Positions 4,561 to 29,128 of a DNA stretch of 29,128 nucleotides are shown here, piece after piece. Made by a program: the position numbers and the translations under genes. The notes below the pieces were generated by a model, which was not told where the DNA came from, did no database searches, and saw only the letters and a program-made list of their open reading frames with translations. How positions within the stretch are numbered: position 1 is the stretch's first letter; every line of letters begins with the position of its first letter. This DNA comes from a virus. The stretch covers positions 1 to 29,128 of the IMG/VR virus record IMGVR_UViG_3300025767_000095, one strand, 5' to 3'.

Positions 4561-6117
4561 ATGAAATTAAAATCTAAATTAAAACTTTACGAAGAATTCG
4601 TAAATGAATCTAAAGAATCTATCGATAGCGTACCGGTAGATCAAGTAACATCAGACGCTACTAGCGCATCCGATACTATTAGAACAGAAGTAATCAGAGA
4701 CGTAGATACTATACTGGACACTTTGTCAGAATTATCAGATAGAATTGGAGAATCTACTTCTATCGATTTAGAAATAGACGAACTATATGAAGAGCTATTT
4801 GACTTAACAAATGTTTCAGAACTTAATGAAGGTATATTAGATTTTATCAAGAGTCCTATTAAATTCATGAAGATTAAGAAAAATCTTAAAGCATATCAAA
4901 AGGCTCTAGTACAAAAGGCAATTAACGATGTCGATTTCGCTAAGAAGAAACAGGTCGGAGACGCTGATGAGAAAGATAAGAAGAGAATGGAAACTTTGAA
5001 GCAAGCTAATCAAGCTAAAAACAAAGCACTAGATGATCAATTATCTGCTATCGGAGAGAGAATGACTGAATTGTCAAGCGGAGACGAAGGTTTAGGTAAA
5101 GTAGTTTCTATAGGAAAAACTAAATCTAAATTAGCTGCGGCTAAAATAGTAATGAAAGCAACTTCAGGTGAAGAGGCAAAACAACTTAAATTAGAAATTG
5201 ATACTTTATCAGATAGAATCGCAGCCGATGAAAAATCTCTTAAAGATTACGCTAAAAAAGTTGGTCCAGCTGATCATACAAGTACTGACCAATCAGGTGA
5301 TAATGATAATACGACTAGTCAAGATCAAATGGCTGGTATAGGCGGTGAAGGTAAACCAAAAACTACACCTAAGGCGACTTCAAAACCAGAACCAACACCG
5401 GAGGCGACTTCAAAACCAGAACCAACACCGGAGGCGACTTCAAAACCAGAACCAACACCGGAGGCGACTTCAAAACCAGAACCAACACCGGAACCTACTC
5501 CAGAAACTGAGACAGAAACTGACACTGAAAAATTAGATGCAGCTGTAACTAAAGCTAAAGAAGCTAAAGATAAATTACCAGCAGATGCTAGTCCAAAAGA
5601 TAAAGCTGCTGCGGATATAGCAGTGTTTACAGCAGAAATTGCTGCAGCTAAAGCTAAAGGTGAAGATACTAAAGATCTTGAAGGAAAATTAGCAGCTGCT
5701 AAAAATACTGCAGCGTTACAAGTTCAAAAAGTAGGTGGAGTAGAGAATGAAGGTATGGAAATAGATTTATCATTTGACACATCATTAGTTGAAGCATCAT
5801 TAAACGGTTTGATGGCATATGACGCTGATGAAGATGGCTACTCATATCTAAAACAACAGGCTAAGAAATTAGGTGTTAAAGTTAGTGTAGATAAAGATCC
5901 ATTCGGAGATGGTTACGATGAATTAAATTACAGTGGTGATAAAGCAGCCATTCTAAAATTAGCTAGTATATCAGGTCATGATTCAGATATTACAAGCGGA
6001 CCAGATGAAGGTGGTTATTGGATTGAAGAATCAGTAAAAGAAGAATTACCTAAAACTATTAAATTAGACGAAGGTTTATCAGTTGCAGAGAAATTTGCAA
6101 TCTTAATGAATAAATAA
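4561..6117 (+). CDS. Candidate internal capsid protein with capsid-targeting-like N-terminus and Pro-Glu repeat linker
   Basis: 518 residues, no recognised enzymatic domain. The N-terminus MKLKSKLKLYEEFVNE-S resembles a T4 capsid targeting sequence, with cleavage expected after V-N-E; a second possible site is L-N-E-G near residue 90. Residues about 90-235 are Lys/Ala-rich and helical. Residues about 271-320 form a Thr-Pro-Glu linker with four 10-residue copies (TSKPEPTPEA type). An Ala/Lys-rich helical stretch follows (about 325-395), and then a compact C-terminal region (about 400-518) with DADEDGYSYLKQQAKKLG and a GGYWIEE segment. It stands where T4 has gp24 but does not resemble it. Packaging inside the head, possibly for injection, is inferred from the N-terminus and the late promoter. 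It is bounded by terminators on both sides, so it is a single-gene unit. Confidence 0.65.
   Translation: MKLKSKLKLYEEFVNESKESIDSVPVDQVTSDATSASDTIRTEVIRDVDTILDTLSELSDRIGESTSIDLEIDELYEELFDLTNVSELNEGILDFIKSPIKFMKIKKNLKAYQKALVQKAINDVDFAKKKQVGDADEKDKKRMETLKQANQAKNKALDDQLSAIGERMTELSSGDEGLGKVVSIGKTKSKLAAAKIVMKATSGEEAKQLKLEIDTLSDRIAADEKSLKDYAKKVGPADHTSTDQSGDNDNTTSQDQMAGIGGEGKPKTTPKATSKPEPTPEATSKPEPTPEATSKPEPTPEATSKPEPTPEPTPETETETDTEKLDAAVTKAKEAKDKLPADASPKDKAAADIAVFTAEIAAAKAKGEDTKDLEGKLAAAKNTAALQVQKVGGVENEGMEIDLSFDTSLVEASLNGLMAYDADEDGYSYLKQQAKKLGVKVSVDKDPFGDGYDELNYSGDKAAILKLASISGHDSDITSGPDEGGYWIEESVKEELPKTIKLDEGLSVAEKFAILMNK
5371..5490 (+). repeat. Four tandem 30-bp coding repeats
   Basis: Four head-to-tail units beginning at 5371, 5401, 5431 and 5461. 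Units 2-4 are identical; unit 1 differs in its first base. Each encodes ten residues of a Pro-Glu linker. Near identity at the DNA level implies recent expansion by slippage or recombination. Confidence 0.97.
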
Positions 6118-26119: not shown

Positions 26120-26593
26120 ATGAAATTAATATTGGTAGGAAAAGCTGCTTCTGGTAAAGATCACTTAAAACAGAAGTTGCAAAGGAAAGGATTTAAAATA
26201 GGTGTAAGTCATACTACACGAGCACCGAGGGTCAATGAACAAAACGGCGTAGATTATCATTTTATAGATAAAGATGAGTTTTTAACTATGATTGATCAAG
26301 GTTTGTTTATTGAATATATGGAATTTAACGGATGGTATTATGGTCAAACTGAAGAAGATTTTAATAAAGCTGATGTGATGATTATGAGTAAAGATGGATT
26401 GGACATGCTACCAGAGCAGTATAGAAGTCGATGTGCAGTTGTTTATTTAGACATTGACAGAAAGACTAGAATTGAAAGACTTAATTATAGGAATGATGTA
26501 AATGACTCTATAATGAGACGTATGAATACCGATGATGAACAATTTAAAGACTTTAGGGACTTTGATATTAGGATCACGAACGCAGATTTTTAA
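26120..26593 (+). CDS. Guanylate-kinase-like nucleotide kinase
   Basis: 157 residues. P-loop GKAASGKD (8-15 region), then the guanylate kinase signature SHTTRAPRVNEQNGVDYHFI, matching TTR-x-PR-x-x-E-x-x-G-x-DYHF, and FIEYMEFNGWYYGQT, matching the family's F-x-E-x-x-x-x-x-x-x-YG-T. The C-terminal part has RIERLNYRN and MRRMNTDD, as in the lid/R-rich helix. The usual Ser/Thr after the P-loop Lys is Asp, seen in some phage kinases. Cellular guanylate kinases have about 200 residues; this one lacks part of the C-terminus. Likely role: GMP/dGMP phosphorylation for the phage nucleotide pool; activity on another nucleotide is possible. Confidence 0.78.
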   Translation: MKLILVGKAASGKDHLKQKLQRKGFKIGVSHTTRAPRVNEQNGVDYHFIDKDEFLTMIDQGLFIEYMEFNGWYYGQTEEDFNKADVMIMSKDGLDMLPEQYRSRCAVVYLDIDRKTRIERLNYRNDVNDSIMRRMNTDDEQFKDFRDFDIRITNADF

Positions 26594-26632: not shown

Positions 26633-27145
26633 ATGAGTACAAAACTAAAAAAGCGCCAATCAGAATTGGCAATTGAAATTGATGCATTGCAAACAGAAGC
26701 AGCAGAAAAAAGATTTGAAATTACATTTGATAATGTTAAATCTATTAAAACTGTTCAAGATCACCTTAATAAAGGTTACACTTGGAAAACTCAAAATGCT
26801 GCAGTAGTTGTATCATTATATGATCAATTCAAAACACAATCTAAGATGTTAGCTCCTGATGCAGATGCGGTGATTTCTTTAAGAGGTCATGAATTGAATG
26901 CACTTTATCAAGCACTTCTTAATGTTGAAGGAACTGGTATTGAAAATGCAAGAAGATTCATCACTATGTTAACTCAAATTGGAGAAGCAGTAGGTGTTGC
27001 AATGCAAGATTTAAGTGCATTGAATACAACGCTTAATGATTTACATACTGAATTAGCAGAAGTTGATTCTCAATTAGAGGCGCTAGAAGGTGTTGAAGTA
27101 GTATCACCTGAGTTAGAAAGTGAAGTTACTGAATCTAATAATTAA
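26633..27145 (+). CDS. Helical/coiled-coil hypothetical protein, 170 residues
   Basis: N-terminal coiled coil (KKRQSELAIEIDALQTEAAE), a globular middle (about 25-110, with YTWKTQNAAVVVSLYDQFKT and ISLRGHELNALYQALL), and a second coiled coil (LNTTLNDLHTELAEVDSQLEAL) before an acidic tail. No recognised family. The leader TAATAATAAACATG is A-rich. Regular codons suggest good expression. A structural or scaffold-like role is only a guess. Confidence 0.65.
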   Translation: MSTKLKKRQSELAIEIDALQTEAAEKRFEITFDNVKSIKTVQDHLNKGYTWKTQNAAVVVSLYDQFKTQSKMLAPDADAVISLRGHELNALYQALLNVEGTGIENARRFITMLTQIGEAVGVAMQDLSALNTTLNDLHTELAEVDSQLEALEGVEVVSPELESEVTESNN

Positions 27146-27172: not shown

Positions 27173-27207
27173 ATTTCACACAATGGGATTCTCCCATTGT
27201 GTGAAAT
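27173..27207 (+). repeat. Perfect 16-bp inverted repeat
   Basis: ATTTCACACAATGGGA (27173-27188) and TCCCATTGTGTGAAAT (27192-27207), with a 3-base spacer. It lies in the gap between the coiled-coil gene and the phosphoesterase-like gene. There is no T tract on either strand, so it is not a canonical terminator. Confidence 0.93.
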
Positions 27208-27242: not shown

Positions 27243-27758
27243 ATGAAAATATTTGTAACATCTAACCTACAATTGGGTAGACCGGGAGCTTTAAGTAAAT
27301 ATAAGAGACCTTACGAAAATGTAGATCAAATGACAAATGATTTAATTCTTAAATGGAATGAAACAGTGACCAATGAAGATACAGTATACCATTTAGGTAA
27401 TTTCGCACATGATCCTAAAACTGCACAAGATTCTATTACAAGATTAAATGGTACAATTAAATTTATACAAGGTGACTTTGACTCTGCCATTACATTATTA
27501 AACGAAAAGGGTATGTTGCCAGAAAAATGTTCTATTGTTAGGTGCGTGGAAGAACTCAAAAATATCAATGCAGTAGTATCATATTGGCCACTAGGAGCTT
27601 GGCCTAATAAGTCTAAAAAGACATGGTCTATTATAGGATATCCAAATAACAAATATAAATCAGATCCAAAAAAGAGGATTATTAATGCTTCTACTGATTT
27701 ATGGGCTAATAAGCCACAAGAGTTAGAAAAACTCATGGGTATTTTCTCTGATTTCTAA
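27243..27758 (+). CDS. Metallophosphoesterase homologue lacking its metal ligands (pseudoenzyme candidate)
   Basis: 171 residues. The layout is that of small phage/bacterial calcineurin-like phosphoesterases: MKIFVTSNLQLGR, then KRPYENVDQMTNDLILKWNE, DTVYHLGNFAHD, a LNGTIKFIQGDFD segment and VVSYWPLGAWP. In active members these read S-D-x-H-x-G-H, LGDF, GNHD and LSHYP followed by HGHxH. Here Asn8, Gln10, Asn53, Asp78, Phe79 and Tyr114 replace the Asp, His, Asp, Asn, His and His ligands, and no HGHxH is present (IIGYPNN instead). The frame is intact, so it is not a decaying pseudogene. It probably binds rather than cleaves; the partner is unknown. The fold assignment rests on motif spacing. 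Confidence 0.75.
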   Translation: MKIFVTSNLQLGRPGALSKYKRPYENVDQMTNDLILKWNETVTNEDTVYHLGNFAHDPKTAQDSITRLNGTIKFIQGDFDSAITLLNEKGMLPEKCSIVRCVEELKNINAVVSYWPLGAWPNKSKKTWSIIGYPNNKYKSDPKKRIINASTDLWANKPQELEKLMGIFSDF

Positions 27759-27790: not shown

Positions 27791-27826
27791 ATAATTTTTT
27801 TATGTCAAAGTTTTTTGGTATATTAG
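27791..27826 (+). promoter_or_regulatory. Early/middle-type promoter box, TCAA-N10-TATATTAG
   Basis: ATAATTTTTT at 27791, TCAA at 27805-27808 and TATATTAG at 27819-27826; same order and spacing as at 7650-7685. The ATG at 27852 follows. Confidence 0.6.
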
Positions 27827-27851
27827 TAGAGTAATTAAAAACAGAGAGTCA

Positions 27852-28211
27852 ATGCAAATAAAAATCAACAAACAACAAGAATCGGTTTTAAAATCAGCCT
27901 TAGAAGATTACATCGAAAACCTAGTAGGTACAGGTGTTAAATATAATAATGCTGTAGAAATTTTAAATCAGATAAATTCAAGTGGCTTTGTAGAAGCTAA
28001 ATCTAGAATCCCTAAAGTATTATTAAAAAAACAATATATGTTTACCTTCGAACAAGGTGGATGGAATACTGTTTGGGCTAAAACTTTACCGGGCGCAAAA
28101 AGACAAGCTATTAAAGAGTATAAAGATTCTGAAAACTTAACAGTTAAATTAGACTCTGTGCACCTAGCAACCAAAAGTGGATTAGAATCAGCAATGAGTT
28201 TATTTTACTAA
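27852..28211 (+). CDS. Hypothetical protein, 119 residues
   Basis: N-terminal amphipathic helix (INKQQESVLKSALEDYIENL), a central LLKKQYMFTFEQGGWNTVWA stretch and AKTLPGAKRQAIKEYKD, then a beta-like LTVKLDSVHLATKSG end. Basic overall. No family recognised. It has its own promoter box of the same class as the RNase H and sigma genes, suggesting expression with them and a possible non-structural role. Confidence 0.65.
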   Translation: MQIKINKQQESVLKSALEDYIENLVGTGVKYNNAVEILNQINSSGFVEAKSRIPKVLLKKQYMFTFEQGGWNTVWAKTLPGAKRQAIKEYKDSENLTVKLDSVHLATKSGLESAMSLFY

Positions 28212-28255: not shown

Positions 28256-28277
28256 TCAATAAAAAGTGTTATATTAG
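28256..28277 (+). promoter_or_regulatory. Early/middle-type promoter box, TCAA-N10-TATATTAG, before the sigma gene
   Basis: TCAA at 28256-28259 and TATATTAG at 28270-28277, with the same 10-base interval as the other two sites. The upstream T-rich part is less conserved. The ATG at 28309 follows after 31 bases. Confidence 0.55.
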
Positions 28278-28308
28278 CATTATAATTAAAACTTAAAAAA
28301 AGAATCAT

Positions 28309-28914
28309 ATGTCAAAACAACTCAGTTACCGCGAATTATCAGAAAACTTTGTCAAAACTAAATCAGAAAAAGATTACAATGCACTCTATAAGCGCGTAAA
28401 GCCGGGTCTTAAAAACTATATTGCAAATGTAGTTAAAGATACAGAAGCCACTGAAGATATCTTAACTAACACACTAACCAAAATGTGGACCAAGATTGAT
28501 CAATACGATCCATCATATCAAATCACCACATGGTTATATAGAATAGCATTTAATGAATCTTTGGGTTGGATTCGCCAGCGTAATAGCAAATATAGTATTG
28601 ATGCTATGAAAGAATATGGTATTGAAATTTCAGATCAATATGCACATACGTCAGCTAAAGATCTATTAGTCGAACGTGAATTCAAATCAGAAACTGATTG
28701 GTATGAAGAAGATAATGATTTGCAAATGAGATACGAACTAGCTCTATCTAATATCAATAATCTAAAACCAATGTACCGTGAGATTATCGAAGATCGTCTA
28801 TTGAACCATATGAAATATGAAGACATTGCAGAAAAGCATAATTTACCTTTGCAGACCATTAAAAACCGTATTCGTAGAGGTAAATCTATTATAGCTGAAA
28901 ATATGGAATATTAA
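28309..28914 (+). CDS. ECF-like RNA polymerase sigma factor
   Basis: 201 residues. Region 2 (about 18-95) ends in YDPSYQITTWLYRIAFNESLGWIRQR, the sigma-2 pattern F-x-T-W-L-Y-x-I-A-x-N. Region 4 (about 145-198) has an MKYEDIAEKHNLPLQTIKNRIRRGK helix-turn-helix, as in sigma-4. An acidic linker (DWYEEDNDLQ) joins them; regions 1 and 3 are absent, as in ECF factors. It should redirect host RNA polymerase. T4 uses gp55, also a small sigma, for late TATAAATA promoters; this protein is the obvious candidate to read the GATATATAA motif class here. Its own gene carries the other promoter class, consistent with being made before late genes. The target is inference. Confidence 0.88.
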   Translation: MSKQLSYRELSENFVKTKSEKDYNALYKRVKPGLKNYIANVVKDTEATEDILTNTLTKMWTKIDQYDPSYQITTWLYRIAFNESLGWIRQRNSKYSIDAMKEYGIEISDQYAHTSAKDLLVEREFKSETDWYEEDNDLQMRYELALSNINNLKPMYREIIEDRLLNHMKYEDIAEKHNLPLQTIKNRIRRGKSIIAENMEY

Positions 28915-28923
28915 TTCCTAAAT

Positions 28924-28956
28924 TTTGAAACTTAGATATATTATCTAGTATAATAG
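28924..28956 (+). promoter_or_regulatory. Promoter-like sequence TTTG-N21-TATAATAG
   Basis: TTTG (28924-28927) and TATAATAG (28949-28956) in the gap after the sigma gene, directed into a stretch without a clear gene. The TTTG plus distant TA-rich box is reminiscent of the Bacteroidota TTTG / TAnnTTTG promoter, though the -7 box is imperfect. Confidence 0.4.
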
Positions 28957-29128
28957 TAGTAAATTAACAAAAACACTAGTGATTTGATAAAGAGATTAAA
29001 ATGGAAATTAGTTATGAGCCTTGCGCAGGGAAAGCAACTAAAACTAAGTTTGAAAACTAAACTATAAAAAGAAGGAATGATACGAGCCCTCAAAGTTCGA
29101 AAAGAGTCCGCACTAGTTTATTAAGGTA
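28957..29128 (+). other. Gene-free stretch with locally GC-rich, possibly structured RNA; cut by window edge
   Basis: No frame longer than about 20 codons: 29001 (19 residues), 29014 (17) and 29077 (15, after the Shine-Dalgarno-like AGAAGGA). GAGCCTTGCGCAGGGAAAGC (29016-29035) is 65 percent G+C in an AT-rich genome. Pairings available: TTAGTT (29008-29013) with AACTAA (29036-29041); AGGG (29027-29030) with CCCT (29087-29090); ACTAGTG (from 28976) with CACTAGT near 29111. These could make a compact RNA, but I cannot match a known family and the 3' side is missing. It may also be a leader of the next gene. Confidence 0.35.

Follow-up and report, generated by a model that had tools for sequence, protein, structure and literature searches.

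Small phage phosphoesterases of the PHROG 547 and COG4186 type, together with Aquifex aq_1665 (PDB ID: 1xm7), share their fold, length, motif order and motif spacing with a 171-aa protein encoded in the 29-kb virus record analyzed here (IMG/VR record IMGVR_UViG_3300025767_000095, positions 1 to 29,128; hereafter, the window). Scaffold residues (RP, WN, D.VYHLG and LNG) are also held in common, but the window protein has all seven metal ligands replaced and its gene is linked to that of a sigma factor. A phage sigma factor with an associated protein is found in T4, where late transcription involves the sigma factor gp55 and the co-activator gp33. The resemblance of that pair to the present locus, with its phage sigma factor and possible dedicated partner, is one of functional analogy only; the sigma factor described here is of the ECF type, and gp33 does not have a phosphoesterase fold. 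A search for gp33 produced no match, and was uninformative because its positive control was equally silent.

Inactive phosphoesterase folds acting as scaffolds are known in eukaryotes. The retromer component VPS29 uses an inactive phosphatase fold as a scaffold (PMC7539009 and papers cited therein), and the B-subunits of eukaryotic DNA polymerases contain an inactivated phosphodiesterase domain (PMC4996933). VPS29 is comparable to the window protein in being a phosphoesterase fold that serves protein binding, but it is eukaryotic, has other partners and is a weak structural match to our model (5w8m, Foldseek E 0.49). The polymerase B-subunits have likewise lost their catalytic motifs and serve to scaffold the assembly of a nucleic-acid machine, but they are far longer and contain an inserted OB domain, whereas the window protein is a stand-alone domain tied to a transcription gene, aligning along residues 1-169 with 1xm7. 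By analogy, the window protein perhaps works like VPS29 or the polymerase B-subunits. A survey of jumbo phages (PMC7824862) covers phage phosphoesterases and sigma factors in passages that do not mention a pairing of the two. The open-licence full texts that we searched describe neither a phage pseudo-phosphoesterase nor such a link to a sigma factor, which we regard as a weak sign of novelty.

Identification of a phosphoesterase homolog in a probable T4-like phage

The major capsid protein of the window has relatives in phages of Tenacibaculum, Flavobacterium, Chryseobacterium and Prevotella (Lak), and is 49.5% identical to that of the 462-kb uncultured phage LR756500; the exceptions among its relatives are two Sphingomonas phage records. 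These capsid relatives indicate that the source is likely a T4-like phage of Bacteroidota, and the gene under study is probably carried by a lineage of large T4-like phages infecting this phylum. Tandem PEATSKPEPT-type repeats are present at 5325-5536, within a 518-aa ORF (4561-6117).

An earlier note on this sequence had pointed to an intact reading frame with the motif spacing of a phosphoesterase, and our analysis recovers this frame at exactly 27243..27758 on the plus strand. Residues 1-168 of the 171-aa product match the PHROG 547 'phosphoesterase' profile (E=3.4e-18), and tblastn searches yielded matches in 791 phage records. Pfam and NCBIfam profiles do not match the protein, as expected from the disappearance of the conserved catalytic columns, and a sequence search of the PDB returned no meaningful match. 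The homology to phosphoesterases is not due to chance and, together with the predicted fold, it places the protein in the calcineurin-like phosphoesterase superfamily.

We modeled the protein with AlphaFold2 from 68 sequences, obtaining a pLDDT of 95.9 and a pTM of 0.91. Foldseek identified 1xm7 as the sole PDB match below 0.001 (E 3.4e-7), and VIA-align superposed the model on this structure with a Z score of 17.3 (rmsd 2.6 over 158 residues), followed by LpxH, YfcE (1su1, Z 10.7) and, at Z ~9-9.6, Mre11/SbcD and the inactive B-subunits of eukaryotic DNA polymerases (~9.1-9.6); structures missing from the VIA-align matches were not counted as evidence. Among the top matches to the model in BFVD, those with names are phage phosphoesterases or metallophosphatases. 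We are hence confident that the predicted structure of the window protein preserves an intact phosphoesterase fold, and not a different one.

Replacement of the metal ligands

We compared the ligand positions of 24 active homologs with those of 67 distinct relatives, the window protein being counted among the latter. The seven di-metal ligands (D8, H10, D53, N78, H114, H133 and H135) are each present in all 24 active homologs, and H13 in 22 of them, so these positions do hold metal ligands in homologs. In the window protein, by comparison, none of the seven is left (D8N, H10Q, D53N, N78D, H114Y, H133Y and H135N), and position 13 is an arginine. On the plus strand, N8, Q10 and R13 stand for D, H and H at the motif I site (27264..27281), where SDxHxGH reads SNLQLGR; N53 (27399..27401) substitutes for the bridging Asp in LGD, giving LGNF; the GNHD site (27474..27482) reads GDFD, with D78, F79 and D80; the HYP site (27582..27590) contains Y114, W115 and P116 within VSYWP; and the GHxH site (27636..27647) retains G132, with Y133 and N135 in place of two His, the stretch IIGYPNNKY occupying the HGHxH site.

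These replacements are common to the group. Residues N8, Q10, R13, N53 and Y114 are each found in 67/67 relatives, and position 78 is acidic in 66 of the 67 (D in the window, E in most). Position 133 is mostly Y, H or F, and position 135 varies freely. The second-shell residue D80 of GNHD is kept in the window and in 66/67 relatives, while W120 (27600..27602, plus strand) is present in all 67 and in 13/24 active relatives. The earlier note's statement that every recognizable metal ligand had been replaced therefore holds, with D80 retained and N78 now acidic; this D/E78 could in principle still contact a cation. A recent loss of the ligands in a single phage is rejected.

The ligand-less sequences form one clade in our phylogeny (SH-aLRT 98, ligand columns included), and the sigma-linked sequences likewise form one clade (SH-aLRT 99) when the ligand columns are omitted and intermediates are added, although these are trees of a quick kind with long branches, in which the order of the sub-lineages is unsure. 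The losses are thus shared by a clade, as the earlier note had wondered, and a single scan of IMG/VR gave 166 matches to it. Four deep sub-lineages can be distinguished. Besides the window clade, these are LR756500/L097/L220, with D8, M10, R13, N53, N78, T79, D80, H114, H133 and Y135; L210-L219, with D8, W10, R13, N53, N or S at 78, C, S, A or N at 79, H114 and H133; and L221/L228, with D8, F10, R13, N53 and Q or I at 78. All four share R13 and N53. We take the first metal site to consist of D8, H10, D53 and H135 and the second of D53, N78, H114 and H133, as is usual for this fold. The ligands listed for DP1 (PMC4996933) are consistent with this assignment. By this assignment, the first metal site is broken in all four sub-lineages and most of the second is kept in two.

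Selection on the rebuilt site

Several lines of evidence indicate that the protein is under purifying selection. Pairing the window with its relatives gives dN/dS values of ~0.07-0.22, a rough range given that dS exceeds 1 in most pairs; for the closest relative (L007), dN is 0.035 and dS 0.49. The invariant replaced sites show silent codon variation (N8 AAT/AAC, Q10 CAA/CAG, R13 five codons, N53 AAC/AAT, Y114 TAT/TAC). Among 39 sequences below 85% identity, the motif loops of the old active site have an entropy of 0.52 bits, versus 1.63 bits in the rest of the protein; a value as low as that of the loops arose in 0 of 20000 random permutations. Polar or charged residues that are invariant or nearly so comprise N8, Q10, R13, N53, D80, K139, N148 and D152. 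The silent codon variation, the dN/dS values and the low loop entropy indicate that the site has been rebuilt and held, and is not decaying. The frame is full-length in all distinct relatives except one cut by a contig end and one that is frameshifted (L019 and L127, which are the same contig); the split in the latter reflects either an assembly error or a recent loss.

With a fold that is kept, catalytic residues lost throughout a clade and purifying selection, the protein is very probably a pseudoenzyme, whatever its role, and its residues imply that it would no longer hydrolyze phosphoesters. The proposal of the earlier note that selection maintains the fold without catalysis is thereby sustained, as far as can be judged from sequence.

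Linkage to a phage ECF-type sigma factor

Downstream of the pseudo-phosphoesterase, at 28309..28914 on the plus strand, lies a gene for a 201-aa protein containing sigma regions 2 and 4 (Pfam Sigma70_r2, 8.1e-10; Sigma70_r4_2, 3.7e-9), as is typical of ECF sigma factors. In the window and its nearest relatives only (5/35 loci), ORF119 (27852..28211, plus strand) is found between the two genes. The sigma gene is near the pseudo-phosphoesterase in 35/35 non-redundant loci of the window clade. The uncharacterized ORF170 (26633..27145, plus strand), with weak sub-threshold matches to coiled-coil families only, is present in 33/35, a 178-aa ORF in 25/35 and an upstream Fpg-like gene in 23/35. Apart from a guanylate-kinase-family gene considered below, no other gene exceeds 13/35.

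The linkage is also recovered from the opposite direction. Starting from the sigma factor, with a profile drawn from the window clade and not intended as a census of all phage sigma factors, we found the pseudo-phosphoesterase 0.5-1.2 kb upstream in 75 of 79 IMG/VR loci; in three of the remaining four (the L014, L015 and L017 contigs) the genes are ~6 kb apart, and the fourth is truncated where its contig ends. A third set of homologs, assembled to include intermediates, was chosen with no regard to sigma factors. In this set, all 13 homologs with R13 and N53 have the sigma gene 0.5-2.2 kb downstream, compared to 0/58 of those with all seven ligands that have one within 1.5 kb, the latter including an intact paralog in L210 located 4.2 kb from the sigma gene of its pseudo copy. 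The other nine members of the set (N78 to S or P, one H114N, truncations and poor alignments) are not sigma-linked. Furthermore, across eight loci from the four deep sub-lineages, the phosphoesterase and the sigma factor are the only genes common to all. Each of 10 large contigs from the clade contains just one Sigma70_r2 match above the cut-off, the adjacent sigma gene; a jumbo phage has four. No phosphoesterase adjoins the sigma gene in huge phages whose sigma factor is a more distant relative (L201-L206, Lak phages among them), which is a point against the partnership proposed below.

The conserved linkage to the sigma gene probably has one origin, as a single event long kept and not many independent ones. 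All neighbors were tallied to address a plain conserved-neighborhood effect, and the sigma gene stands out, although this effect is not wholly removed.

Several other features of the neighborhood were recorded. A perfect 16-bp inverted repeat with a 3-nt loop (27173..27207) precedes the pseudo-phosphoesterase start by 35 bp; in some of the relatives that lack the 178-aa ORF, this position is taken by hairpins of 9-12 bp whose sequence is not conserved. The 178-aa ORF, missing in the window, sits between ORF170 and the pseudo-phosphoesterase and has a PD-(D/E)xK-like stretch with a weak HSDR_N match (L013:5461-5997, L017:5461-5997, L021:5465-6001 and others). A TATATTAGYA-like motif, possibly a phage promoter element, occurs before ORF119 (27819-27828), before the sigma gene (28270-28279) and after it (28949-28958), and the window contains 24 near matches versus 13.3 expected. 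Rfam gave no match within the window.

Proposed role and alternatives

Our best reading, which we advance tentatively, is that the protein is a repurposed, non-catalytic phosphoesterase fold forming a core component of a module with the phage ECF-type sigma factor. The face of the old active site would be a binding surface, on which R13 and the acidic D/E78-D80 plausibly stand in for the metal-ligand network. Working with the phage sigma factor, or with host RNA polymerase to which that factor is bound, the protein would scaffold or regulate the switch in phage transcription. The more specific proposal that the fold became a dedicated partner or regulator of the sigma factor, with the intermediates recording the dismantling of the metal sites, is put forward with slightly greater reserve. 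An AlphaFold2 prediction of a read-through chain from L039 (phosphoesterase, intergenic codons with stops as Gly, and sigma factor) had a pTM of 0.47 with only 11 linked rows, each domain being confidently predicted but placed relative to the other without a confident interface. With so few rows linked and a true partner that may be the polymerase, this model does not refute direct contact, nor does it support it. A point against the proposed association is that shared late expression alone can keep gene order.

The remodeled pocket could instead be a non-cleaving binding site for a small ligand (a nucleotide, phosphate or nucleic acid end), making the protein a sensor linked to the sigma gene through shared regulation. 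We consider this unlikely, but it would account for active-site loops far more conserved than the remainder of the protein and for polar and charged residues that seem more than a pure scaffold requires. The presence of a guanylate-kinase-family gene (26120..26593, plus strand) at 30/35 window-clade loci is consistent with such a sensor; outside this clade, however, the gene was located solely in L211-L219, ~4 kb upstream, and was not found near in L210, L005 or L221/L228.

Pseudoenzymes in general can act as decoys, sponges or inhibitors, and the earlier note had raised this possibility, of a decoy, a sponge for nucleotide signals or an inhibitor of a host homolog, which would amount to an anti-defense role. 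The presence of an intact paralog elsewhere in some genomes would fit this role, which we nevertheless judge improbable: the gene is strongly conserved, has a fixed place in a conserved cassette outside any accessory region and is a core gene tied to a sigma factor, which is not what an accessory decoy or a sponge for signals would lead one to expect. A scan of genome contigs with clade-specific patterns returned another phage-like contig and no host homolog, a result that says little. The earlier interpretation is thus upheld for a fold under selection without catalysis, not for its proposed role, and it missed the sigma factor context.

A separate intact phosphoesterase is present in several genomes of the clade. 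In others the pseudo form is accompanied only by more remote superfamily members, among them a ~373-aa protein that we took for SbcD-like by its length and position in the profile, although these contigs may be incomplete. An apparently intact metallophosphoesterase of another type (L022:11327-12043) lies near the pseudo form in 5/35 loci. Enterococcus phage vB_OCPT_Bill (L112:2498-3678) has two adjacent phosphoesterase genes, one with GNYE and HEP for GNHD and HYP. Genes for RNA ligase or polynucleotide kinase lie no more than a few kb from intact phage phosphoesterases in L114, L116, L118 and L121, an arrangement suggesting that the active family takes part in RNA repair.

It is very improbable that the protein is still an enzyme with a one-metal or metal-free mechanism. 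Intermediates such as L005 and L210, which retain N78, H114 and H133 in the second site, might accommodate one metal, and D78 and D80 are kept in the window. In the window clade, however, Asn has replaced both Asp ligands, no His ligand survives apart from H133 in some members, and position 135 varies. A sequencing artefact, or a decaying relic kept only through its position between selected genes, as the one frameshifted relative might suggest, is hardly credible and is rejected on the basis of the dN/dS values, the clade-wide identity of the replacements and the full-length frames of the other distinct relatives, bar the one cut by a contig end.

The pseudo-phosphoesterase clade is large, contains graded intermediates and is tied to what is apparently the only sigma gene of these phages. 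It therefore allows direct tests of how a pseudoenzyme evolves and of how gene expression is switched in widespread phages, most of them uncultured.
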